40,230 nt of DNA from an uncultured Lachnospiraceae bacterium. Its GTDB lineage: Bacteria > Bacillota > Clostridia > Lachnospirales > Lachnospiraceae. This document shows positions 2,832-23,829 of the stretch, one piece after another. The notes below the pieces were generated by a model, which saw only the letters and a program-made list of their open reading frames with translations, was not told the DNA's origin and did not search any database. Both the position numbers and the translations under genes were made by a program. Positions within the stretch are counted from its first letter, which is position 1, and every line of letters begins with the position of its first letter. The stretch covers positions 1-40,230 of the forward strand of contig CAMOZY010000017.1 in the NCBI GenBank assembly GCA_946631295.1, in the 5' to 3' direction.

Positions 2832-3935
2832 TTAATCTTTATATATACGGACCAGGTTATCCATCCTGGATGACATATCATACATAAGAGCGTCCAGAAC
2901 AGTTATGGCACACATGCTTTCGAGAACCACAACCGCTCTCGGAACGATTACCGGATCGTGTCTTCCGTGTATCTCTATATCAACATTCTCACCGGCAGTA
3001 TTTACTGTTTTCTGGCTTCTGGCAATGGAAGGTGTCGGTTTTACTGAACATCTTACGATTATGTCTGAAGAATCACTTATACCGCCGAGTATTCCACCCG
3101 CATGATTGGTCTTCTTTGAAATATGTCCGTCTTTTGCAATCCTGAACTGATCATTGTTCTTACTGCCGTTTGATGCGGATGCCTTAACACCGTCTCCGAT
3201 CTCTACAGCTTTGACAGCACCAATGCTCATAACTGCCTGCGCAAGAAGTGCATCGAGTTTATCAAATACAGGATCACCGATTCCTGCAGGCATTCCTTTT
3301 ATCATGCATTCCATAACACCACCGCAGGAATCAGACTTATTCTTCATGTCTGCAATATATTCCAGTGCCTGCGCATTGGCAGTAATATCAGGCATTGCGG
3401 TAGCATTGGCAAGAACAGCACTTCTTGAATATTCATCCATATCAGCCTCCACAGGCCCAATGGATCTGGTATATGCTTCAACGCTTATTCCAAGCCCAGC
3501 AAGAACCTTTGATGCAACAGCACCGGCAATAACTCTTGCAGCGGTTTCTCTTCCTGAACTTCTTCCGCCTCCCCTGTGATCCCTTATACCGTATTTGGCA
3601 TCATAGGTCATATCGGCATGTCCGGGTCTGAACACATTTTTAAGTTCATCATAATCTCCGGAATGCATATCCGAATTTCTGATGATAACCGATATAGGAG
3701 TTCCGGTAGTTTTTCCCTCAAAAACTCCCGATAAGATCTCACACGTATCGGATTCCTTCCTTGCGGTAGCCACTGCGGCATTTCCGGGCTTCCTTCTGTC
3801 GAGAAACGGCTGTATATCAGCCTCTGACAGTTCAACTCCCGCCGGGCATCCGTCTATAACACATCCAAGTGCAGGACCATGTGATTCGCCCCAGGTTGTT
3901 ATCCTGAATATTCTTCCTATTGAAGATCCGGCCAT
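2832..3935 (-). CDS. aroC: Chorismate synthase
   Basis: This 367-residue enzyme converts 5-enolpyruvylshikimate-3-phosphate to chorismate with reduced FMN, the last shikimate-pathway step. Recognisable family blocks are the N-terminal GRIFRITTWGESHGPALG, the DRRKPG motif, FRPGHADMTYDAKYGIRDHRGGGRSS and the C-terminal HDPVIVPRAVVVLESM. Together they cover the full FMN/substrate site, with the conserved histidines in ESHGPALG and FRPGHAD present. Its ATG immediately follows the DUF5662 stop with no spacer, so translation is probably coupled. No other shikimate gene is in the window. Confidence 0.97.
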   Translation of the reverse strand: MAGSSIGRIFRITTWGESHGPALGCVIDGCPAGVELSEADIQPFLDRRKPGNAAVATARKESDTCEILSGVFEGKTTGTPISVIIRNSDMHSGDYDELKNVFRPGHADMTYDAKYGIRDHRGGGRSSGRETAARVIAGAVASKVLAGLGISVEAYTRSIGPVEADMDEYSRSAVLANATAMPDITANAQALEYIADMKNKSDSCGGVMECMIKGMPAGIGDPVFDKLDALLAQAVMSIGAVKAVEIGDGVKASASNGSKNNDQFRIAKDGHISKKTNHAGGILGGISDSSDIIVRCSVKPTPSIARSQKTVNTAGENVDIEIHGRHDPVIVPRAVVVLESMCAITVLDALMYDMSSRMDNLVRIYKD

Positions 3936-4556
3936 TTATTCCTCATTTTCCGCCTGTTCAGGCTCTTTGATTGTTTTCTCTGTCCTGCTGATCTTCTTTC
4001 CAAGGACCAGTTCCTGTCTGATCAGCTTAAATGTCTTTTCCTCGCCATACTTTGCAAGGATTCTTAGATATCTGTAGAGGCTTTTCTTGGTATTCGGATG
4101 CATGGGAACCATTTCTATACCACCAAGAAAATATTCCAATGCTGCAGAATCTGTATAATCCTTCCCCTTATAAACCTTGGATGCCGCAATGCGGTCCATT
4201 ATCATCTCTGCAAGATATCTGTCCGGCATCTCAACCGGTATCAGCACATCCTCACCGGCTATCTCGCCTCTAGTATTATAATCAATCCAGTATTCGTAAT
4301 GGTGCTTATTACGTCCCTTGTGATGCAGCCATGCGGATGAATATCCGATATCTTCACGCTCTGCATTATTTGGGCTTCTGGTTCCCTGATAATATTTTAC
4401 ACCGACAAGAAACTCACTCGGAGAATACTTCGACAGATCATGTGTAAGTCCCTGATAATACAGACCAATCTTAAAACAGCCTTCACACACGAGCATCCTG
4501 TGTTTGGTTATCGTGATGAAATGCATAATGAATCTGTATATATATGGTTTTTTCAT
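3936..4556 (-). CDS. DUF5662 family protein
   Basis: A 206-residue protein resembling the DUF5662 family (function unknown). It has the blocks that characterise it: ITKHRMLVCEGCFKIGLYYQGLTHDLSKYSPSEF near the N terminus (His and Asp at LTHDLSKY), then WLHHKGRNKHHYEYWIDY around residues 97-114. The clustered conserved His/Asp residues suggest a metal or ligand site, but this is inference. The C terminus is Lys/Glu-rich. Its ATG overlaps the GH13 stop by four bases (ATGA) and its stop abuts the aroC ATG, so it lies in the middle of a translationally coupled operon. No function can be read from the context. Confidence 0.75.
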   Translation of the reverse strand: MKKPYIYRFIMHFITITKHRMLVCEGCFKIGLYYQGLTHDLSKYSPSEFLVGVKYYQGTRSPNNAEREDIGYSSAWLHHKGRNKHHYEYWIDYNTRGEIAGEDVLIPVEMPDRYLAEMIMDRIAASKVYKGKDYTDSAALEYFLGGIEMVPMHPNTKKSLYRYLRILAKYGEEKTFKLIRQELVLGKKISRTEKTIKEPEQAENEE

Positions 4557-6409
4557 CTGCCTGCTTTACCTGTCTTCTTTTCACATGTTTTACATGCCGA
4601 AGCCTCAAAAAATGCAACGCACCTGCCCGGTATAAGTTTTTCCAGTTCATCTCTGGAAGCATCTCTTCCCGGCTGATCATCGGATCTGCTTTTTGATTCC
4701 GGACAGACAGGAACATCTTTTGCTAAATACATATCCCTGTCAGTTGAAAGTAAAAGCTTCCATTCAAATCCCTTCGGCGGTCTGGGGAGTGCAAGGTATG
4801 TTTCCTCCCAGTTCATGTTAACTGCTGCATATACAAGCGAGTTTGCGCTCTTTTCGCAATACATTATTCCAAAAGATCTCGAATAATATTCAGCCGATAC
4901 TCTCCATGCGGTATCCGAATGATAACTGATCTCAGGGAATCCGCAATTTTCGGTATCTATCATATAGAGCTCTTTATCCTTGCGAAATACTGAATATTTC
5001 TTTCTGAGAAGCACTATCTCTTTCAGATAATCCGTAAGATCTGAGTTTTTAACCGCATCCTTCCAGTCAAGCCATGTGACAGGTGAATCAATGCAGTAGG
5101 GATTGTTATTACCCTTTTGCGAATTACCGAATTCATCTCCCATGAAGATAAGCGGTGTTCCTGCTCCCATCATCAGAAGACTGAATGCATTCCTTATCTG
5201 TCTTGATCTTAAGTCTCTTACTTTCTTTTTCCTGGAAGGACCTTCCTCTCCACAGTTCCAGCTGAAGTTAAAATCACTTCCGTCACGTCCGTCTTCACCG
5301 TTTTCCTCATTATGCTTGCGGTCAAAACTCACAAGATCCATAAGAGTGAAGCCTCTGTAACTGGAAAGGAAATTAATGCGTCCGAAATCTTCCGGATTAT
5401 TTCTCAGCATTGAAAGGCTTTCTGATACCTGCCCCTCATCGCTTTTAAGTATTCTTCTCAGAGGATACTGGAAATCATCTGTGTAATAACCTATTACCCT
5501 CTTTGACCCCCGCTTCCTGATTACATCAAAATTGACGTTCTCAAGATGATCTGATAAAAGCTTGGTTCCGGCAAGAAGCGGATCCGCAGCAAGAAGCCTC
5601 ATCGGGATACCGATACCCATAAGATGGAAAGCATCCACATGGAAATTCACTACCCAGTAGCGAAGAATCTCAAGGACCTCTGCTTCAGGAAAATCAGGTG
5701 CAAAGTAAAACTGCATACAGATTTCCATATTACGCTTATGCAGAGCGCTTACTAATTCTCTGAACTCCTTAACAGGATCATCCGAAAAAGAATAAGCCTG
5801 TTTGGGAGTGTAATAATATCCCGGCTTATATCCCCAGTAATTGATCTTCTGAGTTTCTTCATCCCATTCATCAAATTCATATGCAGGCTGAAGCTCAATC
5901 GTGGTAACACCTATGGATTCAAGATGATCAAGCTTCTCGATAATACCTGCAAAAGTTCCTCTTGCCTTAACGCCAGATGAAGGTGACTTGGTAAATCCCC
6001 TCACATGAAGCAGATACCAGAAGCTGTCTTCATATGAAAGACCGGGATTTTTATCTCCATCCCAATCCGTTTCATCATCATATACGAATGCTTTCAATGA
6101 AGACACATCCTGTACTCCATATGTCCTTCCGGATACAAATCTCACAGCTCTGGGATCACTTACAAGCTTCTTTCCGTCATAAAAAAGATACGAAATATCT
6201 GAAGCGTTAATGCCGGAAACCGTTCTGCAGTACAGATTGCCAATCCTGTCGGAATCCTCAAATGCTATCCTTTTAAGCTCTTTTTTTCCTGTTTTGTCAT
6301 AAAGGATAATACCGCAATCATCAGAATCCGATTCAAGGCAGAAACGCACTCCGTTTTCAGTCACCTGTGTAATAAGCGGAAATATGAAATTTGACGCTTT
6401 TTTATTCAT
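4553..6409 (-). CDS. GlgX/isoamylase-like GH13 protein with degenerate active site
   Basis: A 618-residue protein. It has an N-terminal beta domain (about 1-115), then the GlgX block WYLLHVRGFTK...RGTFAGIIEKLDHLESIGVTTIELQP, a TIM-barrel region, the debranching-enzyme block KHNEENGEDGRDG...FNFSWNCG and the late barrel motif GTPLIFMGDEFGNSQKGNNN, and a C-terminal beta domain. By alignment from memory, the catalytic regions are lost. Region I DVVYNH is MQFYFA. Region II VDGFRFD is VDAFHLM, with Met264 at the nucleophile. Region III AEPWD is SDHLE (Asp287). Region IV THDG is SYRG, with Tyr351 and Arg352. About 45 residues between regions I and II are also missing. Debranching activity is therefore unlikely. 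The ATG at 6407-6409 has GGAG 10 bases upstream; an in-frame TTG at 6415 is less well placed. Confidence 0.82.
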   Translation of the reverse strand: MNKKASNFIFPLITQVTENGVRFCLESDSDDCGIILYDKTGKKELKRIAFEDSDRIGNLYCRTVSGINASDISYLFYDGKKLVSDPRAVRFVSGRTYGVQDVSSLKAFVYDDETDWDGDKNPGLSYEDSFWYLLHVRGFTKSPSSGVKARGTFAGIIEKLDHLESIGVTTIELQPAYEFDEWDEETQKINYWGYKPGYYYTPKQAYSFSDDPVKEFRELVSALHKRNMEICMQFYFAPDFPEAEVLEILRYWVVNFHVDAFHLMGIGIPMRLLAADPLLAGTKLLSDHLENVNFDVIRKRGSKRVIGYYTDDFQYPLRRILKSDEGQVSESLSMLRNNPEDFGRINFLSSYRGFTLMDLVSFDRKHNEENGEDGRDGSDFNFSWNCGEEGPSRKKKVRDLRSRQIRNAFSLLMMGAGTPLIFMGDEFGNSQKGNNNPYCIDSPVTWLDWKDAVKNSDLTDYLKEIVLLRKKYSVFRKDKELYMIDTENCGFPEISYHSDTAWRVSAEYYSRSFGIMYCEKSANSLVYAAVNMNWEETYLALPRPPKGFEWKLLLSTDRDMYLAKDVPVCPESKSRSDDQPGRDASRDELEKLIPGRCVAFFEASACKTCEKKTGKAGR

Positions 6410-6436
6410 GCGCAAAATACTCCAAAATTATAATAA

Positions 6437-6465
6437 ATTATACTTCAAAAATCCCTTATTTTCAA
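6437..6465 (-). promoter_or_regulatory. Sigma-A promoter of the GH13-DUF5662-aroC-lactonase operon
   Basis: The minus strand carries TTGAAA (6460-6465), a 17-base spacer and a perfect TATAAT (6437-6442), with 27 bases between the -10 and the GH13 ATG. It is the best promoter candidate for the four downstream genes, which have overlaps or gaps of at most 18 bases. Confidence 0.75.
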
Positions 6466-6489: not shown

Positions 6490-6536
6490 ATAAAAAAAGC
6501 TCCTTTTATGCACTCTCCAGTGCATAAAAGGAGCTT
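6490..6536 (-). terminator. Intrinsic terminator of the zinc-ribbon/FecR gene
   Basis: A perfect 18-base inverted repeat (6497-6514 and 6519-6536) encloses a 4-base loop. On the minus strand it is followed at once by a run of seven T (6490-6496, overlapping the end of the stem). It lies about 60 bases after the stop of the FecR-domain gene and just upstream of the GH13 promoter, insulating the two units. The stem is unusually long and perfect. Confidence 0.88.
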
Positions 6537-6597
6537 CGTTTATCATCTTTCAAGATCATGCCGGACATAACCATTCTCGGTCTCACCGGTATATCTT

Positions 6598-8502
6598 TTA
6601 ATCACCATCCATTTCCCCGTAATAATCCCCGTATGAGATTCTGTCATATGTTCCCCATCCGGTCACATGCAATTTATCCTCTCTTATATAGCATGAATAT
6701 GATATTCCGTTACCATGGTCAACAAATGTCCAGCCATCACCCGAGGTCTCATAAGTCAGTTCAGATATCGAATTAGGAGCATAATAGCAGTAGCCTTCTC
6801 CATTTTCAAAAAAGACAAGATCGGGCCAGCCATCATTCTGGGAATCCCATGTTCCGACAAGACTCATATCAATCGGTCCGTCCGTAACCGTATCTTCATC
6901 ATCACCAAGTGAAAAGCGGACGTATCCCGATCCATCATATACCAGGCTGTATCCCGACAATTCTGCCGTCAGATTTTTGGAATCCAATCCCGGATGAGTT
7001 TCACCGCACAAAACCGTAATATAAATGTATCCGGGCTCATATCCCCATCCCCATTCAAATGCATATGTATATGACTTGGCGCCGTCATACGTGCGCACAT
7101 ATCCGGTATTGTCACGGCTGAAGCTGAAACCTGTTACGGTATTGGTTTCACCCTCATCCAAAGCCCAGTCACCAACAATCTGATCATATGGATCGTCTGA
7201 CAGTGTTGCACCCGGGTTCATGGTAAGTACCCTCTCCCAGTCCTTTAATCCCAGGCTGCCGTCATCAAGTGTACAATAAGTCAGTGCTCCGACAGTTCCC
7301 ATGAGGGGATTTATATAGCCTATAAATTCATTATCTTCAATAAACCAAACGAGCTGTATCTTGTTATATGTGCCCTCCTCTCCGATGGCAACTACGGGCT
7401 GATACTGATATGCAATTCCGTCTGACAATAGTTCAAAAGCGGGCTCACCCTCGTAATACCACATACCAATAACATCATCGTCAGTGATTGTGGAATAATC
7501 TATTTCCTGAACGACCTCATCACCATCATCAGGTTCATCAGCTGTTTCATCATCCTCTTCATCATCCGGTTCTTCCTCAGAATAGAGATCTTCCAGTGAT
7601 TTTAGTATATCGCTGTCCCATCCTGTAGCATCAGTTACCGCTTCAAGGAGATCCTTATCGGAAACGATCTCTGATACAGCCTCTACAGGCAGATCATATT
7701 CCGTAATATCCTCAACGACAAGTGTGATTTCGTCATCATCCTTAATGACAGTTATCTTCTCGCCTGCATATATCTTTTCACTTTCAGCTTCCGCGCCTGT
7801 ATCATCAAGTCCGGATACTACAACCTTTCCGCTTGTAAGATAAAGGACGGGGTTACCCTTCTCATCAGAATCGATATATCCTGACGTTCCTCTGATGCCT
7901 ACCGCCATCGTTGAAGTACGTATTTCGAATAACTCATCGTCTTCAAGAGGACGCTCAATGTTAAAAAAGATCCGTCCCTCAGTAAGATTCAGCCTCATAT
8001 CCTTACCCTGCTGGAGGAACTCTGCGCTGCTCAATTCCATAAGGGTAACCATACGCTCTTCATCCAAAAGAACCCATGCCTTACTCTCTTCCTCAGTACC
8101 CAGCCTGTCCCCGAAAAGAAGACGTCTGGATTCGCTGAGTTCCAGCTCTTTTCCCTTGGCATTTATAAGGGTGACTTCCCCGGTATAATCGGAAAGGCGC
8201 ATTGTTGAAGCAGTAAGCTTACTGCGTGCGATCAGAACGCAAACAACGATCACAAGCAAAAGTGCAAAGATTCCGATCAGCACAACAGGCAGAATACTCT
8301 TCTTTTTATCAGAAACCTGTACATTTTCATTTACAGGCACATTTTCATTTACAGTCAAACTTTCATTTACGAAAATGTTTGGTTTTTCTTCCACTGACTG
8401 TGTTCCCGCATCAGCCAACTGTTCCTCTTCTGCCTTAGTACCGCATTTAGGACAGAATGTATCTCCATCTTCAAGCTCATTACCGCATTTTATGCAAAAC
8501 AT
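6598..8502 (-). CDS. Zinc-ribbon, transmembrane, FecR-domain protein with tandem beta modules
   Basis: A 634-residue protein. Residues 1-22 form a zinc ribbon (Cys3, Cys6, Cys17, Cys20). A repeat-containing linker runs to about 67, with one TM helix at about 69-92. Residues about 105-255 match a FecR domain (GEVTLINAKGKELELSE; the hallmark MAVGIRGTSGYI near 199-210; TSGKVVVSG). A very acidic linker (about 305-340) leads to three related Trp/Gly-rich modules beginning VIGMWYYEG, IVGDWALDE and LVGTWDSQN, which look like lipocalin-type extracellular beta domains. With the zinc ribbon inside, the FecR and beta modules would face outward, suggesting an envelope sensor or scaffold; this is inferred. 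Unlike classical FecR it has no TonB-receptor or ECF-sigma partner here. Monocistronic. Confidence 0.8.
   Translation of the reverse strand: MFCIKCGNELEDGDTFCPKCGTKAEEEQLADAGTQSVEEKPNIFVNESLTVNENVPVNENVQVSDKKKSILPVVLIGIFALLLVIVVCVLIARSKLTASTMRLSDYTGEVTLINAKGKELELSESRRLLFGDRLGTEEESKAWVLLDEERMVTLMELSSAEFLQQGKDMRLNLTEGRIFFNIERPLEDDELFEIRTSTMAVGIRGTSGYIDSDEKGNPVLYLTSGKVVVSGLDDTGAEAESEKIYAGEKITVIKDDDEITLVVEDITEYDLPVEAVSEIVSDKDLLEAVTDATGWDSDILKSLEDLYSEEEPDDEEDDETADEPDDGDEVVQEIDYSTITDDDVIGMWYYEGEPAFELLSDGIAYQYQPVVAIGEEGTYNKIQLVWFIEDNEFIGYINPLMGTVGALTYCTLDDGSLGLKDWERVLTMNPGATLSDDPYDQIVGDWALDEGETNTVTGFSFSRDNTGYVRTYDGAKSYTYAFEWGWGYEPGYIYITVLCGETHPGLDSKNLTAELSGYSLVYDGSGYVRFSLGDDEDTVTDGPIDMSLVGTWDSQNDGWPDLVFFENGEGYCYYAPNSISELTYETSGDGWTFVDHGNGISYSCYIREDKLHVTGWGTYDRISYGDYYGEMDGD
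8321..8374 (-). repeat. Three 18-base tandem repeats inside the FecR gene
   Basis: Units at 8321-8338, 8339-8356 and 8357-8374 repeat an 18-base sequence. The first two differ at two bases and the third is more diverged. They encode a six-residue period of the VNEN-V type in the cytosolic linker between zinc ribbon and TM helix. In-frame slippage here would change linker length without breaking the protein. Confidence 0.8.
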
Positions 8503-8557
8503 ATTTCTTACTCTTTTCTGAAAATCTCATATTCCCTTACCAAAATGAAATACACGC

Positions 8558-8568
8558 ATTATATTATA
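8558..8568 (-). promoter_or_regulatory. Probable -10 region of the FecR-domain gene
   Basis: The minus strand carries two overlapping TATAAT hexamers within 8558-8568, about 55-65 bases before the ATG. The nearest -35-like hexamer, TTGTGA, is only 15 bases upstream of the first TATAAT, which is short. The -10 is strong but the -35 is uncertain. Confidence 0.4.
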
Positions 8569-8600
8569 ACCCAATGGCCATATTCACAAGCATTTCACAC

Positions 8601-8630
8601 TTTACACCTTCCTGCATTCAGGTGTATCAT
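8601..8630 (+). promoter_or_regulatory. Sigma-A promoter of the helicase gene with embedded inverted repeat
   Basis: TTTACA (8601-8606), an 18-base spacer and TATCAT (8625-8630) each match five of six consensus bases, 47 bases before the helicase ATG. ACACCT (8604-8609) and AGGTGT (8620-8625) form an inverted repeat overlapping both hexamers, a typical position for a repressor operator. It is not a LexA-type box by eye. Confidence 0.5.
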
Positions 8631-8677
8631 ACCCGCATACATGACAAGACGCCCCGGAGAAGGCAGAAAGTACATGT

Positions 8678-10552
8678 ATGAATAAATTCACATTTAAAGA
8701 TCTTAATCCTCAGCAGCGCGAAGCCGTGCAGTTTTCAGGCGGCAATCTCCTGCTTGCTGCAGGTCCGGGTTCAGGCAAGACACATACCATGACCTCCCGG
8801 ATCATCTATCTTATCGAATGCATGTCAGTCGATCCCTCTTCGATCCTTGTGATCACATTCACAAAAGATGCCGCTCTTTCAATGCAGAAGAGATTCCAGA
8901 ACGCATCTGAACTCTCTTATCCTGTTGCTTTCGGAACATTCCATTCGATCTTCTACAACATGATAAAAGAATACAAAAAAGCTTCACCTCCCATTCTGAT
9001 CTTCGATAAAAACAAAAATCATATAGCTGAAAACTGTCTGAGAAAATTTGCCGACAGATCCTTTCTTAACGATGAACCCGATGCAGTAAAAAGCTTTATT
9101 GCGGCTCTTTCCGTATATAAGAATACGGCAGATGCTGAAAAGGCATCATCCGAACTTCCCGCAAAGATCAGAAGCCTTTTTCCTGACATGCTCAGGTATT
9201 ATGAGGGCATCCGAAAAAAAAGCTGCCAGATGGATTTTGATGATATGGGCTGGGATTGCAGACAGCTTCTGATTCATGATGAATCATTTGCACGCAGATG
9301 GAAAGGAAGATTTTCCAACATACTCATTGATGAATTTCAGGACATATGTCCGGTACAGTATGAAACGGTAAGACTGTTGTCCGAAGATTTTTCAGGCAAT
9401 TCAAAAAGCAATGTATTTGCAGTAGGTGATGATGATCAGTCCATATACGGTTTCAGAGGAGCAGATCCATCAATACTTACCAGGTTTGCAAATGAAATGC
9501 ATGCCGGAATCCTTCATCTTGATACCAACTACAGAAGCAGGAAAAAGATCGTAAATTATTCTATGGCGGTAATAAACGAAAACAGCTGCAGGATCAAAAA
9601 AGATCTTATCTCTGCTTCTGACGAAGAAGGAATCGTGGAGATAAAAGGACTGGTCAGCAGAGATGAAGAATACGGATATATTGTTAAAAAAGCCTCTGAA
9701 ATATGCGGTAATAAAGCCGTTTTATTCCGAACAAATCTCGAAATGCAGAGTTTTGCCTCATATCTTTCTTCGAAAGGCATACCATTTACCATAAAAGAGA
9801 AAACCGAAAGCATTTTCGAACATTTTATTTTCAAAGATTTATCTGCCTACATCAAGCTTTCACAGGGAATATATGACGAGTCAGATATATGTGCGATCAT
9901 CAACAAACCACTCAGATATATAAATCATGAAGCCGTGATAGGAAGCAGAGGTAATCTTATGGAAATAATAAATAAACTAAAGAACAATCAGGGAATCATG
10001 AATCCGGAAGCAAAGATCAGAAATATCCGTTTGCTAATAAAGGATCTTGAATTCATGAAATTTCTTTCCCCCTTTTATGCCATAGGATATATATGTCAGA
10101 AAATCGGATATTCAAAATATCTTTATACCATGGCAGGGACTGACGCAAAGAAGAAAGAGGAATATGACCGCATACTGTCCATCGCAAAGGAAATATCCTC
10201 AAAAACTGAAAACTACGATGAATTAGATCTGATAAAAGAAAAATATGAAAACGATCTTCGCAGATCAAAAAAAGAGCTCCATAATGATGATCTTCTGGAC
10301 CTCATGACAGTACACGCTTCCAAAGGCCTTGAATTTGATAATGTTTTCATTCCTGATTGCAATGAGGGAATATTTCCTCACGGAAAGCTTCCTGATAAGG
10401 ATACCATCTCCGAAGAACGAAGGATTTTCTATGTTGCAATGACCAGGGCAGTTTCAGGATTATACCTTCTCTACATAAAGGGGCGGAGCAATAACAAATA
10501 CGTAACGTCAAGATTCTTAAATCCGATCATTAAGATGGAAAAAAACGCCTGA
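8678..10552 (+). CDS. UvrD/PcrA-like superfamily 1A DNA helicase
   Basis: A 624-residue ATP-dependent 3'-5' helicase of the UvrD/Rep/PcrA group. Visible motifs in order: LNPQQREAV (Q motif, residues 9-17), Walker A AGPGSGKT (28-35), VITFTKDAA (Ia), ILIDEFQD (II, about 214-221), VGDDDQSIYGFRGA (III), LDTNYRS (IV), LMTVHASKGLEFDNVFIP (V) and EERRIFYVAMTRA (VI). It is about 100 residues shorter than PcrA and lacks an obvious C-terminal PcrA tail, so it is probably an accessory paralogue and not the main PcrA. An upstream ATG at 8674 stops after three codons, so 8678 is the start. It is divergent from the FecR gene and has no terminator before the cellulase gene. Confidence 0.92.
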   Translation: MNKFTFKDLNPQQREAVQFSGGNLLLAAGPGSGKTHTMTSRIIYLIECMSVDPSSILVITFTKDAALSMQKRFQNASELSYPVAFGTFHSIFYNMIKEYKKASPPILIFDKNKNHIAENCLRKFADRSFLNDEPDAVKSFIAALSVYKNTADAEKASSELPAKIRSLFPDMLRYYEGIRKKSCQMDFDDMGWDCRQLLIHDESFARRWKGRFSNILIDEFQDICPVQYETVRLLSEDFSGNSKSNVFAVGDDDQSIYGFRGADPSILTRFANEMHAGILHLDTNYRSRKKIVNYSMAVINENSCRIKKDLISASDEEGIVEIKGLVSRDEEYGYIVKKASEICGNKAVLFRTNLEMQSFASYLSSKGIPFTIKEKTESIFEHFIFKDLSAYIKLSQGIYDESDICAIINKPLRYINHEAVIGSRGNLMEIINKLKNNQGIMNPEAKIRNIRLLIKDLEFMKFLSPFYAIGYICQKIGYSKYLYTMAGTDAKKKEEYDRILSIAKEISSKTENYDELDLIKEKYENDLRRSKKELHNDDLLDLMTVHASKGLEFDNVFIPDCNEGIFPHGKLPDKDTISEERRIFYVAMTRAVSGLYLLYIKGRSNNKYVTSRFLNPIIKMEKNA

Positions 10553-10625: not shown

Positions 10626-10661
10626 CATTGTAAAAGTTCCGGGATAAAAGGAGTCAGGATA

Positions 10662-12875
10662 ATGAATCAAAGACGCACAGGGGTAATTACAAGAAAGATT
10701 TTTTCACTGATACTTATCGTGATATTGACCATCGGAATAATATCACCCTATATCAGTGCAGGAAGGGTTTCAGCCGATGAGGGTCCAACCGCTTCCAATG
10801 TTTCAACCAATCTGTGGGGATCAGGCGGTCAGATCTCCTTTGATCTTTCAGGCTGTAACGGATTCCTTACCATCACGGTGGTAGTTGAATTCAATGCGGA
10901 TGTCAATTCACCTTCAGGATGGGGATTCGACAGCTATACTGCTAACGGAAAACAGGTTACTGCAACAGTCAGAGCAGACGGCGGAAATTCCTGGGGATTC
11001 AATTCGAATGTCGGAATACAGGTAAGCGGATCCGGTCTTTCTTCAGCTAAGGTCATCAGTGTTTCAGGCGACGGATCATATACAGCACCTGTGATAAACA
11101 ACAATAACAATAATAACAACAACAATAATAACAATCAGAATAATAACCAGAATTCCGAAGCAAGACCCGAATTCTCATCTCCCGCTGTCACCACATACGG
11201 AACTGCCGGCGATGACTGGCTCACAACAAAAGGATCCAAGATCGTCGATATGAACGGTAACGAGGTATGGCTTACAGGATGTAACTGGTTCGGATACAAC
11301 ACCGGAACCAATCTCTTTGACGGTCTCTGGAATGCCGAACTCGAATCCTCTATCAAAGCCATTGCAGATCATGGTTTTAATCTCCTCAGAGTTCCAATGT
11401 CCGCAGAGCTGCTCCTTGAATGGAAAAAAGGAAACTTCCCTACTGCAAACTATAACCATGCATATAACAGCAATCTTAACTCACTCAACTCTCTTGAGAT
11501 CTTTGATTATGTCCTGACCCTCTGTGAAGAAAACGGGATGAAGGTCATGATAGACATTCACTCCGCCAATACTGATGCATCCGGACACAATCATCCGGTA
11601 TGGTATACCGACAAAATTTCGGAAGACCAGTACATTGAAGCACTCAAGTGGCTTGCAGACAGATACAAGAATTACGACACCATTGTCGCATATGATCTTA
11701 AAAACGAGCCTCACGGAAAAGCAAGCGAACAGACTCATGCAATCTGGAACGATTCAAATGATAAGAATAACTGGAAAAGAGTTGCCGAGCGTGCCGGAAA
11801 TACGATCCTTGATATCAACCCCCATGCACTTATTGTGATCGAAGGAATCCAGATTTATCCTACCAACCCTGCTTCCAACAATTTCACTTCCACCAATGAT
11901 GCTGATTATTACAACACATGGTGGGGCGGAAATCTCATGGCTGTTAAGGATTATCCCATTGATTTCGGAAACGAGGAAAGAAACAGACAGATTGTCTACT
12001 CTCCTCACGATTACGGCCCACTTGTATATCAGCAGCCCTGGTTTGACGGCGGTTTCACATATGACTCACTCTATAAGGACGCATGGCATCCCTACTGGCT
12101 CTACATCGAAGAAGACAATATCGCTCCAATCCTCATCGGAGAATGGGGCGGCTTCATGCAGGGAGATAACCTGAAATGGATGGAATATATAAGAGACCTT
12201 ATCGGAAAAGAAAACCTTCATCACACTTTCTGGTGCTTCAATGCAAATTCAGGTGATACAGGTGGACTCGTAAAAGATGATTTCAAGACATGGGATGAAG
12301 AAAAATATGCCCTTGTAAAACCGGTTCTCTGGGCTGACAGTGCAGGAAAGTTCATCAGTCTCGACCATGAAGTAGCTCTTGGAGTAAATGGAATAAGCCT
12401 CGGTGCTCATGCAGGTAACGCTCCCACTCCCGTGATCAACCCTGATACCGCATCTTCTGATTCAAACTCAGGAAGTTCTGATACCGGAAATTCCTCATCA
12501 GGCACAGGCAGTTCTGATACTAACAGTTCAACAGGATCAGATAATTCCGACGATACCGGCAATACCGTAGCAGAAACTGCATCATCAGATGATAACGGTT
12601 CTGCAACAGACACTTCTGCTCCTGCTTCAGATACAGCAGCAGGAAATGACACGCAGGTTGGCCAGCAGCCTAATACGCCTGCCGCAACAAACCCTGCCGG
12701 CGAACAGGAAAAAGACAGTGATATGATACTGATGATAGTCCTTCTGATCATTGCGACAGCCCTCCTTGGAGCAGTTATCATAATCACCATGAACAACAGG
12801 GACAAACAGCGTAAGGCATCATCAAACTCAGATAGCAATCCTGAAAATGATCAGGATTATGATCAGAGAAACTGA
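10662..12875 (+). CDS. Membrane-anchored GH5 endoglucanase (cellulase)
   Basis: A 737-residue exported protein. A signal peptide (basic start, hydrophobic about 13-30, cleavage near VSA-DE) is followed by a beta-rich Trp-containing domain (about 40-140) I cannot assign to a CBM family. Next come a 13-Asn linker extended with Gln (146-164), a GH5 domain (about 175-580), a Ser/Thr/Asp/Asn-rich linker, a TM helix (about 688-712) and a 25-residue polar tail. GH5 features include TGCNWFGYNTGTNLFDGLW, the acid/base Glu349 in KNEPHG, the SPHDYGP block and the nucleophile Glu494 in LIGEWGG. The sequence is closest by eye to GH5_1-type endoglucanases. The enzyme is likely active and displayed on the outside by its C-terminal helix, with no LPXTG or dockerin. 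GGAG lies 8 bases before the ATG. Confidence 0.93.
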   Translation: MNQRRTGVITRKIFSLILIVILTIGIISPYISAGRVSADEGPTASNVSTNLWGSGGQISFDLSGCNGFLTITVVVEFNADVNSPSGWGFDSYTANGKQVTATVRADGGNSWGFNSNVGIQVSGSGLSSAKVISVSGDGSYTAPVINNNNNNNNNNNNNQNNNQNSEARPEFSSPAVTTYGTAGDDWLTTKGSKIVDMNGNEVWLTGCNWFGYNTGTNLFDGLWNAELESSIKAIADHGFNLLRVPMSAELLLEWKKGNFPTANYNHAYNSNLNSLNSLEIFDYVLTLCEENGMKVMIDIHSANTDASGHNHPVWYTDKISEDQYIEALKWLADRYKNYDTIVAYDLKNEPHGKASEQTHAIWNDSNDKNNWKRVAERAGNTILDINPHALIVIEGIQIYPTNPASNNFTSTNDADYYNTWWGGNLMAVKDYPIDFGNEERNRQIVYSPHDYGPLVYQQPWFDGGFTYDSLYKDAWHPYWLYIEEDNIAPILIGEWGGFMQGDNLKWMEYIRDLIGKENLHHTFWCFNANSGDTGGLVKDDFKTWDEEKYALVKPVLWADSAGKFISLDHEVALGVNGISLGAHAGNAPTPVINPDTASSDSNSGSSDTGNSSSGTGSSDTNSSTGSDNSDDTGNTVAETASSDDNGSATDTSAPASDTAAGNDTQVGQQPNTPAATNPAGEQEKDSDMILMIVLLIIATALLGAVIIITMNNRDKQRKASSNSDSNPENDQDYDQRN
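11097..11153 (+). repeat. AAY trinucleotide tract encoding the poly-Asn linker
   Basis: Thirteen consecutive AAC/AAT codons, then CAG, three Asn codons, CAG and AAT. Mixed use of AAC and AAT breaks up a pure microsatellite. The encoded linker joins the N-terminal domain to the GH5 catalytic domain. Confidence 0.9.
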
Positions 12876-12951
12876 TAATGATAAAGACTGATACATGAAG
12901 CTGCCAATACATTTGGGGATTTTCAGAAATAAAAAGCGCCTCTGACAAACG

Positions 12952-22254: not shown

Positions 22255-23829
22255 TCAGATTACCTTTAATATCTGTCCGAGACTGTAAAGTATCCCGCCA
22301 AATGGCATAAGTCTTAGTTCGGCATCCGTGTAATTTCTGAGCAGAAGCAGAACGGAATGATAAATGATAAGTCCTATAGGGATGCACATTAACATTGTAA
22401 AGAGGTTGCCAAGATGTGCAGCTGCAGCATTTGTGATAAGAAGAAGAACAATAGCCGTAACAGCACCCGAAACAACAGGAAGAAGTATATTCCTGAATGG
22501 ATCGAAAACCATCGCCATCCTGAAATAGGTGATCACGCACCATATGATCATATTGACTGCTGAAAAAACGAGTACAGCTATCATCAGAGTCATATAAAAG
22601 CTATGAGCCATGCCGGAACTTATCTTCACTGTAAGAAATGCCAGAAGACAGGATACGATATCAGAGACTATTCTGGACAGCCTGTCATCGCGCATCGCAC
22701 ACAGCTGATCACAAAACAGTGCGATTGAGTAAAATACGGAAGCTGTAGTGATAAGAACAAGCTCAATCGAAACAGACATTCCGGACTCAGACAGCAGAAG
22801 CCTGTTTACCAGTTTTGACACTGAAGCAAAGAAAGCCGTACAGAAAACTGCTGCGATAACTACAATATGAATTCCAAAATCAAAATATGATCTCGCAAGT
22901 CCCTTTTCATTCTTTCTTGCAGCTGATGCCCAGCTGACTGTGGCTGAAGTACCGCTGTATATTGCTATGATTGATGATATTGCAAATGGAATGAACAGCG
23001 TGTTAATCGATGTTCCGATAACAGATGCATTACCTGCAGTGGCAAATGCAGCCAAAAGAAATACACAGAATGCAGCTCCGTGGACCAGACTTCCCAGACG
23101 TCTTTTCCAAAGATTAAGAAAGATTGCAAAAGGATTCTCTCTCGGTGCATATGAATCGCGTTCCGATCCTGCTTTTATCTTAAGTCCAAGTCTGATGATA
23201 AAAAGGAAAAGAAAGACTAAGAATTCAGTTATGCAAAAACCGATGAAAAGACCGGAACCTGCATATATGTACTTCAGATCTTCATCCATCAAAAGCGTAC
23301 TTGCGATAACTCCTTTATCATACATAACATTCATAAAGAAACATCCTGAAACGATCCTGAAAAACTCCCTGAGTACACCTGCAATACAGACTGCCTTATC
23401 TCCGGAAGATACGGAAGCATACCCTAGAAGAAATTCATTGATCATCCTGAAGAAAAAGAAAACACTTAAGTAAAGCCCGAGGAATCTCCCCTTAGGAAGT
23501 CCCATAATACCGGGCATCAGATGAAAGGTAAGTCCGGCACACAGCACTGCACCTATGATGCCGCCAAGAAACTGATTAACAAATGAAACGGACAGGATGT
23601 TCATAGCATTGTCCTTCTGTCCCTTTGAAAGCTTTGTTCTGATCATTCTCGACATCACGTCGGAAAAACCTTCACCAAGCACCATCCAAACAAGCGCACA
23701 GATCAGATATGCACCGGCAACATAGCCTATTCCCGTATCAGTAAGCAGAAATCTGTAGACATATACCGAAAATGCAGAAATGAGAAGTGCAATATAACCG
23801 GTCTTCTTTTTATATATATAATTCTTCAT
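22255..23829 (-). CDS. MOP-superfamily flippase-like membrane protein
   Basis: A 524-residue, very hydrophobic protein with roughly 12-14 TM helices and basic cytoplasmic loops. The pattern (Arg-rich MSRMIRTKLSKGQ loop, a polar Asn in a central helix at FVNQFLGG, the FFFFRMINEFLLGYASVSSGDK segment) fits the MOP superfamily of lipid-linked saccharide and lipid flippases (Wzx/SpoVB/MurJ relatives). The match is from overall appearance and not from a diagnostic motif. The start shares one base with the ybeY stop (TGATG). Possible cargo is a lipid-linked oligosaccharide; no dedicated polysaccharide cluster is adjacent. Confidence 0.65.
   Translation of the reverse strand: MKNYIYKKKTGYIALLISAFSVYVYRFLLTDTGIGYVAGAYLICALVWMVLGEGFSDVMSRMIRTKLSKGQKDNAMNILSVSFVNQFLGGIIGAVLCAGLTFHLMPGIMGLPKGRFLGLYLSVFFFFRMINEFLLGYASVSSGDKAVCIAGVLREFFRIVSGCFFMNVMYDKGVIASTLLMDEDLKYIYAGSGLFIGFCITEFLVFLFLFIIRLGLKIKAGSERDSYAPRENPFAIFLNLWKRRLGSLVHGAAFCVFLLAAFATAGNASVIGTSINTLFIPFAISSIIAIYSGTSATVSWASAARKNEKGLARSYFDFGIHIVVIAAVFCTAFFASVSKLVNRLLLSESGMSVSIELVLITTASVFYSIALFCDQLCAMRDDRLSRIVSDIVSCLLAFLTVKISSGMAHSFYMTLMIAVLVFSAVNMIIWCVITYFRMAMVFDPFRNILLPVVSGAVTAIVLLLITNAAAAHLGNLFTMLMCIPIGLIIYHSVLLLLRNYTDAELRLMPFGGILYSLGQILKVI

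Follow-up and report, generated by a model that had tools for sequence, protein, structure and literature searches.

A GlgX-like protein without the catalytic residues of GlgX is retained across much of the Lachnospiraceae

Gene organization and predicted fold of pseudo-GlgX

The window analysed here (the whole stretch of 40,230 nucleotides from an uncultured Lachnospiraceae bacterium) carries on its minus strand a gene (4553..6409) for a GlgX-like protein, designated here as pseudo-GlgX. The frame runs from an ATG at 6409 to a stop at 4553 (618 codons), with an in-frame TTG at 6415, and is preceded on the same strand by a putative sigma-70-type promoter (6437..6465; TTGAAA-17-TATAAT), assigned through a consensus match only (11 of 12 bases). 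Residue numbers given below are those of P0001, the translation that starts at the in-frame TTG, two codons upstream of the ATG, and exceed by two the numbers used in an earlier, sequence-only reading of this DNA. A terminator-like hairpin of 19 pairs (6496..6537, minus strand; it also scores on the plus strand) separates the pseudo-GlgX unit from the upstream gene (6598-8502, minus strand), whose product of 634 aa contains a zinc ribbon along with a FecR domain. Downstream, the pseudo-GlgX stop and the start of a DUF5662 gene (PF18907; 3936..4556, minus strand), a conserved neighbour, share 4 nt; the DUF5662 gene is followed on the same strand by genes for chorismate synthase (2832..3935) and a lactonase-family protein (PF10282; 1689..2831), which represent context. 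The uninterrupted frame with its consensus promoter and the coupling to downstream genes had both been described in the sequence-only reading, and both were recovered here. Elsewhere in the window, a 524-aa open frame (22255-23829, minus strand) without a Pfam match lies between genes for YbeY and an FAD-dependent protein, and an Rfam search of the window returned no match.

Structure prediction assigned the GlgX/ISA1 fold to the window protein (pLDDT 90.3), with structure matches of the model including 7u3a, 7u3b and 7u3d (GlgX of S. venezuelae), and sequence blocks of GlgX are present on this isoamylase fold. The N-terminal domain gave no Pfam CBM48 match; in the model it aligns to that of GlgX and of ISA1. 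Against TIGR02100, the NCBIfam GlgX equivalog, the window protein scored 271.9 bits, which is below the curated cut-off of 640.9.

Loss of the catalytic site

To compare the catalytic site, matches to P0001 at ≤1e-20 were taken from the collected loci, and the 200 distinct proteins with a length of 400 aa or more were aligned, 33 rows being labelled active-type and 167 pseudo-type; two of the latter are shorter than 550 aa and were omitted from the conservation counts, which are given for 165 sequences. According to this alignment, the window protein carries Gln235 at the region I Asp position (codon 5711..5713), Met266 at the position of the catalytic nucleophile Asp (5618..5620), Asp289 at that of the acid/base Glu (5549..5551) and Arg354 at that of the transition-state Asp (5354..5356), all on the minus strand and with coordinates computed from the P0001 numbering. 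The substitution of the catalytic regions, as reported from the sequence alone, is therefore borne out.

These losses are common to the relatives. The nucleophile Asp, like the full triad, is present in 33/33 active-type and 0/167 pseudo-type proteins, the latter having retained none (116 sequences), one (46) or two (5) of the triad residues. Among the 167, the transition-state Asp remains in 36, the acid Glu in 19, the region IV His in 54, the region II Arg in 22 and the region I Asp in 17; the region I His, like the region II Arg, is mostly gone. Across seven site residues, pseudo-type sequences each retain zero to three, as compared with seven in every active-type sequence, and their nucleophile column is occupied by Asn, Met, Leu, Ile, Val, Lys, Ser, Tyr and others. 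The columns of the region I Asp and the nucleophile lie 30-31 residues apart in 167/167 pseudo-type versus 75-76 in 33/33 active-type proteins. The gap of about 45 residues between regions I and II that had been noticed in the window protein is thus a loss of 44-45 residues in every pseudo-type relative.

A restored triad at shifted positions was looked for by a proximity test and rejected, as none of the 167 relatives carried all three acids within one to two residues of each position. This result, together with the varied nucleophile column and the loss, in most sequences, of the Arg of region II and the His of region I, argues against a still-active enzyme with moved or different catalytic residues; in favour of such an enzyme, an Asp or Glu lies at most three residues from the nucleophile column in 73/167, and a Glu near the acid column in 50/167. 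Overall, pseudo-GlgX is almost certainly catalytically dead, as judged from its residues.

Distribution among Lachnospiraceae genomes

The family sample consisted of 200 Lachnospiraceae genomes, including incomplete drafts, from 199 genera, with the window's own genome among them. P0001 was matched in 175, and in 150 of these the best match was read: all 150 were pseudo-type with open frames (two rows duplicating other sequences). Re-searching the remaining 25 yielded 11 pseudo-type genomes (some with fragments at contig ends), three with active GlgX only and 11 with other GH13 proteins only. The dead form is thus present in 161 genomes and absent from 39; 35 of the latter possess GlgA, indicating that pseudo-GlgX is dispensable in some. 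Orthologues had been proposed as a check on whether the substitutions are fixed, and in the aligned pseudo-type relatives the absence of the nucleophile Asp is universal (167/167), with various residues in its place.

Active GlgX, defined as a TIGR02100 match better than 1e-100 (35/200 genomes exceed the curated cut-off), was identified in 58 genomes, its catalytic residues having been read in the 33 active-type proteins of the alignment plus a few more. Both forms occur in 55 genomes, including the window's own, where a separate GlgX with an intact site is encoded on contig C1, and the dead form occurs without active GlgX in 106. Pseudo-GlgX could be envisaged as an obligate regulatory subunit of active GlgX, as is ISA2 for ISA1 in Arabidopsis, working only as a heteromer. 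The dead form accompanies active GlgX in 55 of the 58 genomes that encode the latter (odds ratio 6.2, p 7e-4, uncorrected for phylogeny), which fits this proposal, as do loci L117 and L121, in which no more than about 2 kb separates active glgX (3128-5299 and 10658-12880, respectively) from the dead form (6915-8825 and 6907-8814). However, active GlgX as defined by the 1e-100 threshold is missing from 106 of the 161 dead-form genomes, which makes an obligate pairing distinctly unlikely; a facultative one may exist.

In a class sample of 291 genomes, six genomes of other families matched at ≤1e-20, all with an intact triad, and 8/10 listed family members had a match. An order sample of 146 genomes gave 17 other-family matches at this threshold (and matches in 13/15 listed family members); the triad was intact in all 15 that were read, i.e. 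all except G567 and G582, and their candidacy as intermediates was rejected. No dead form was therefore found outside the Lachnospiraceae among the 21 of 23 other-family matches read in these two samples. A search of named genome contigs returned 20 relatives, comprising one active-type deltaproteobacterial match and 19 pseudo-type sequences assigned to Lachnospiraceae, Acetatifactor, Eubacterium, Lachnoclostridium, Ruminococcus or unplaced Clostridia; as the last lack an exact family placement, the term family-specific rests on the class and order samples. The best 10 of 589 plasmid records were all annotated as glgX and showed at most 33% identity.

Phylogeny and selection

Two quick maximum-likelihood trees were built with 45 and 22 pseudo-type rows, plant sequences being in neither. 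Pseudo-type sequences formed one branch (SH-aLRT 100) with a stem of 0.61 and 0.64 in the two trees, its sister group being the GlgX proteins of Clostridia, Lachnospiraceae included (joint support 96 and 98), and the window protein grouped with GlgX and not with pullulanase. By descent, pseudo-GlgX is thus of the GlgX/isoamylase type (GH13_11). End branches ranged from 0.5 to 1.4 among pseudo-type sequences and from 0.1 to 0.8 among active GlgX.

Selection on pseudo-GlgX is purifying. Among 25 close pairs, dN/dS (Nei-Gojobori, own script) was 0.04-0.13 in 21, the other four having infinite dS; since dS exceeds 1 in most pairs, the values of 0.043, 0.062 and 0.064 from pairs with dS <1 are the most reliable. 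A gene in decay would account for the faster evolution relative to active GlgX (mean identity of 40% versus 61% over the same 378 genome pairs, see below), yet such low dN/dS values, the open frames in 150/150 genomes read and the many positions that are invariant in 165/165 pseudo-type sequences render decay barely credible. The description of a catalytically dead but maintained paralogue, put forward in the sequence-only reading, is well supported at the sequence level by the losses common to 167 relatives, by the negative search for a shifted triad, by purifying selection and by the separate intact GlgX in the same genome.

Retained glucan contacts and regional conservation

Acarbose contacts of S. 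venezuelae GlgX include Trp222, Tyr224, Glu470, Asn534 and Tyr536, as given in the accessible part of PMC9530166. With the numbering transferred via the PDB sequence (a manually counted offset of 3), these correspond to W194, Y196, E374, N438 and Y440 of P0001, which are kept in 164, 146 (others Phe), 162, 165 and 154 (Trp in 11) of the 165 pseudo-type sequences, respectively. Residue E374 falls within the kept block KHNEENGEDGRDGSDFNFSWNCG (residues 367-389; 5249..5317, minus strand) and N438 within the kept block GDEFGNSQKGNNN (residues 426-438; 5102..5140, minus strand), with Y440 following shortly after. Because Trp222 and Tyr224 belong to subsite -1, some -1 contacts survive in pseudo-GlgX. 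The equivalents of His271, Asp342, Glu378, Trp380 (Trp in 48/165), His449 and Asp450 are lost or variable, and Arg212 of the S. venezuelae enzyme is situated in a loop that could not be aligned with pseudo-GlgX. The pseudo clade also possesses fixed residues of its own, such as Lys205 (163/165; Asn in 30/33 active-type proteins) and Asp487 (159/165). On the basis of the kept positions, pseudo-GlgX more likely than not binds alpha-glucan; these residues may instead serve folding.

Residues 361-390 (window about 5246-5335, minus strand) form a surface loop that includes E374; they are among the most conserved of the family, yet no other part of the barrel was modelled with so little confidence (pLDDT 67-75), which tells against reading E374 as a glucan contact. 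Such a low pLDDT in a conserved loop would be expected if a ligand or partner orders it, and may be a model limit only.

Regional identity was compared over 378 non-independent pairs from 28 genomes holding both forms. Mean identities of active and pseudo-type proteins were 61% and 40% for the whole protein, 58% and 28% for the N-domain, 67% and 50% for the first barrel part, 73% and 36% for beta3-beta6, 71% and 57% for beta7-beta8, and 38% and 41% for residues 461-560. The catalytic strands are therefore the most diverged in pseudo-GlgX, whereas its C-terminal part is no more so than that of active GlgX, and the concentration of the drop in beta3-beta6 indicates that constraint has shifted off the catalytic strands. 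Two Cys residues close to the C terminus of P0001 were dismissed as a family trait, as CxxC within the last 60 residues was found in only 2/167 pseudo-type sequences. In loci L013 (1420-3861, plus strand) and L174 (587-2968, minus strand), the pseudo-GlgX frame extends into an additional C-terminal domain, which we take, from reading the sequence (PCHRVVG motif), to resemble O6-alkylguanine-DNA alkyltransferase.

The structure matches to 7u3a, 7u3b and 7u3d place pseudo-GlgX in the same fold family as the c-di-GMP-regulated GlgX of S. venezuelae, and a role as a second-messenger sensor of that kind was considered. The motif of the latter, ExR(X)6R (available text of PMC9530166), was detected by plain text match in the first 110 residues of only 4/167 pseudo-type and 0/33 active-type proteins; a c-di-GMP receptor was accordingly rejected, and sensing after the manner of S. 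venezuelae GlgX appears highly improbable.

Neighbouring genes

Neighbours were counted in 161 pseudo-GlgX loci with at least 1.2 kb of downstream sequence, a set that differs from the 161 genomes counted above. In 90 of these loci, a DUF5662 gene of the same orientation lies no more than 2.5 kb downstream, and 40 have a TraX-type gene downstream (the protein used as query matches PF05857); 113 had either and 48 neither. These frequencies and the 4-nt overlap in the window could point to non-glycogen work, in which pseudo-GlgX and DUF5662 (TraX in other genera) function together as an operon and the barrel serves purely as a protein-binding platform. Such a role is unlikely given that glucan-contact positions are kept, that 48 loci have neither neighbour, that 29 of the 39 genomes without the dead form also carry DUF5662 and that DUF5662 genes standing alone lie in varied contexts. 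DUF5662 is present in 138 of the 161 dead-form genomes as compared with those 29 of 39 (p 0.10, non-significant, uncorrected for phylogeny); on this ground, and as neighbours varied among 20 fetched loci centred on DUF5662 genes with no dead form alongside (DUF5662 found in 19, none in L299), an obligate partnership was rejected. DUF5662 is a doubtful candidate for a physical partner of pseudo-GlgX.

The window DUF5662 protein scored 117.5 bits against PF18907 (gathering score 27). The invariant columns of the family are His, His-Asp, His-His and Asp, presumably reminiscent of HD hydrolases, a likeness that is only suggestive. No PDB sequence relative was obtained at E up to 1, and the name DUF5662 was absent from the open full-text literature searched. 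Relatives occur in nine phage-collection records (MT839405.1, MT837678.1, MT836863.1, MT837485.1, MT838682.1 and four more) with uninformative annotation; seven are unannotated records from human faeces, and some may represent bacterial contamination.

The other recurrent neighbours of pseudo-GlgX appeared housekeeping-like (UvrD, DUF1292, GltX, ABC-F, TrpS, AroC and ExoA types); these names, except for DUF1292, TraX and the window's own genes, are assumed from reading the sequences. No glycogen gene was prominent among the recurrent neighbour clusters inspected, and active glgX lay close by in two fetched loci.

Glycogen metabolism in the sampled genomes

GlgA was above its cut-off in 194/200 genomes, including 159 of the 161 with the dead form, and being nearly universal it hardly discriminates between genomes. 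Type I pullulanase was above cut-off in 49/200 genomes, and GH133 above the Pfam cut-off in 59; for GH133, only the 38 genomes with a match below 1e-50 entered the count. In 103 of the 200 genomes, no debrancher of these three types (active GlgX, type I pullulanase, GH133 at <1e-50) was detected, and 98 of the 103 carry GlgA; the 103 comprise 75 genomes with and 28 without the dead form. Among the 75, GlgA is present in 74, so that a need for debranching could exist there, which would suit the still-active enzyme considered above. The debrancher search covered these three types, alpha-1,6-glucosidases being known also from GH31, GH13_31 and GH57. Given the state of the catalytic columns, a still-active enzyme is very unlikely.

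Discussion

The observation made from the sequence alone was correct in nearly every detail. Its interpretation held in so far as the protein is dead and maintained; the binding, sensing or regulatory role it also proposed is one that we can only infer, from the kept contacts and the shifted conservation.

In its fold, block order and non-catalytic contact positions, pseudo-GlgX resembles bacterial GlgX/TreX, from which it differs in lacking a catalytic triad, in the absence of 44-45 residues from the stretch joining regions I and II and in its sub-cut-off score. No title among the matches listed in open PMC full text, a scope outside which most subscription papers fall, concerned a non-catalytic bacterial GlgX, and the portions available of PMC10395257, PMC11046441 and PMC4236520 make no mention of one; the first, a review, credits Blautia obeum with two glgX homologues.

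A dead isoamylase can persist for glucan work, as exemplified by plant ISA2 in the accessible parts of PMC12510319, PMC3787081 and PMC12892837. In Arabidopsis ISA2, the region I Asp is changed to Glu, the nucleophile Asp to Ile, the acid Glu to Asp and the region IV His to Asn (PMC3787081, in part); the same changes are seen in 106, 19, 29 and 27 of the 167 pseudo-type sequences, respectively. As a non-catalytic GH13_11 paralogue, pseudo-GlgX is like ISA2 in combining an isoamylase fold with replaced catalytic residues, including the nucleophile, in having long been kept and in evolving faster than the active paralogue. ISA2 is described, in extracts of the respective papers, as binding four glucoses in its C-terminal segment (PMC12892837) and as possessing an extra N-terminal beta-sandwich domain (PMC12510319). 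Pseudo-GlgX, in contrast, lacks such a domain (618 aa; the model aligns to ISA1 from residue 7), and it often has no active GlgX in the same genome (an active match in 55/161 dead-form genomes); for these two reasons, it is not filed as ISA2. The missing loop between regions I and II is defined relative to active GlgX, not to ISA2. An origin independent of ISA2 is suggested by the placement beside clostridial GlgX, in trees that hold no plant sequences.

The plant beta-amylases BAM4 and BAM9 belong to GH14, i.e. another enzyme family than that of pseudo-GlgX, whose role is a proposed one, and they are comparable as a model of how it might work only. They are dead hydrolases proposed to regulate glucan breakdown, according to the available sections of PMC12892837.

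We consider it about 50% probable that pseudo-GlgX is a non-catalytic isoamylase-type protein, split once from active GlgX and kept across much of the Lachnospiraceae, that acts as a glucan-binding scaffold or sensor. A single split from active GlgX would have been followed by loss of catalysis and by retention across much of the family. Alpha-glucan chains would be held on the remaining face of the cleft (the beta7-beta8 loops), perhaps also on the C-terminal domain, and the protein would bring other proteins to glycogen or shape the polymer, by analogy with plant ISA2 for starch. Candidate partners are the DUF5662 protein encoded next door and, where present, active GlgX. By the same analogy, a scaffolding or regulatory part in glycogen metabolism is plausible. 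Weighing against this reading are the lack of a prominent glycogen gene among the neighbour clusters inspected, the 39 genomes without the dead form and the non-significant co-occurrence with DUF5662. More tentatively, pseudo-GlgX may be a family-specific non-catalytic isoamylase, independent of ISA2, that sets glycogen architecture or recruits enzymes and is kept in many genera in which no active GlgX was found.

As far as the residues indicate, loss of catalysis is common to most sampled Lachnospiraceae genera and is not a one-off. The family would thereby offer a second, bacterial case of a question raised for plants, i.e. why selection retains a non-catalytic isoamylase (PMC12510319). In this sample, the dead form outnumbers the live one almost threefold (161 versus 58 of 200 genomes), so that the assumption that any GlgX-like gene encodes a debrancher would misjudge glycogen breakdown in a major gut and rumen family. 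In these bacteria, pseudo-GlgX may have a non-catalytic, probably glucan-binding, role in glycogen handling.
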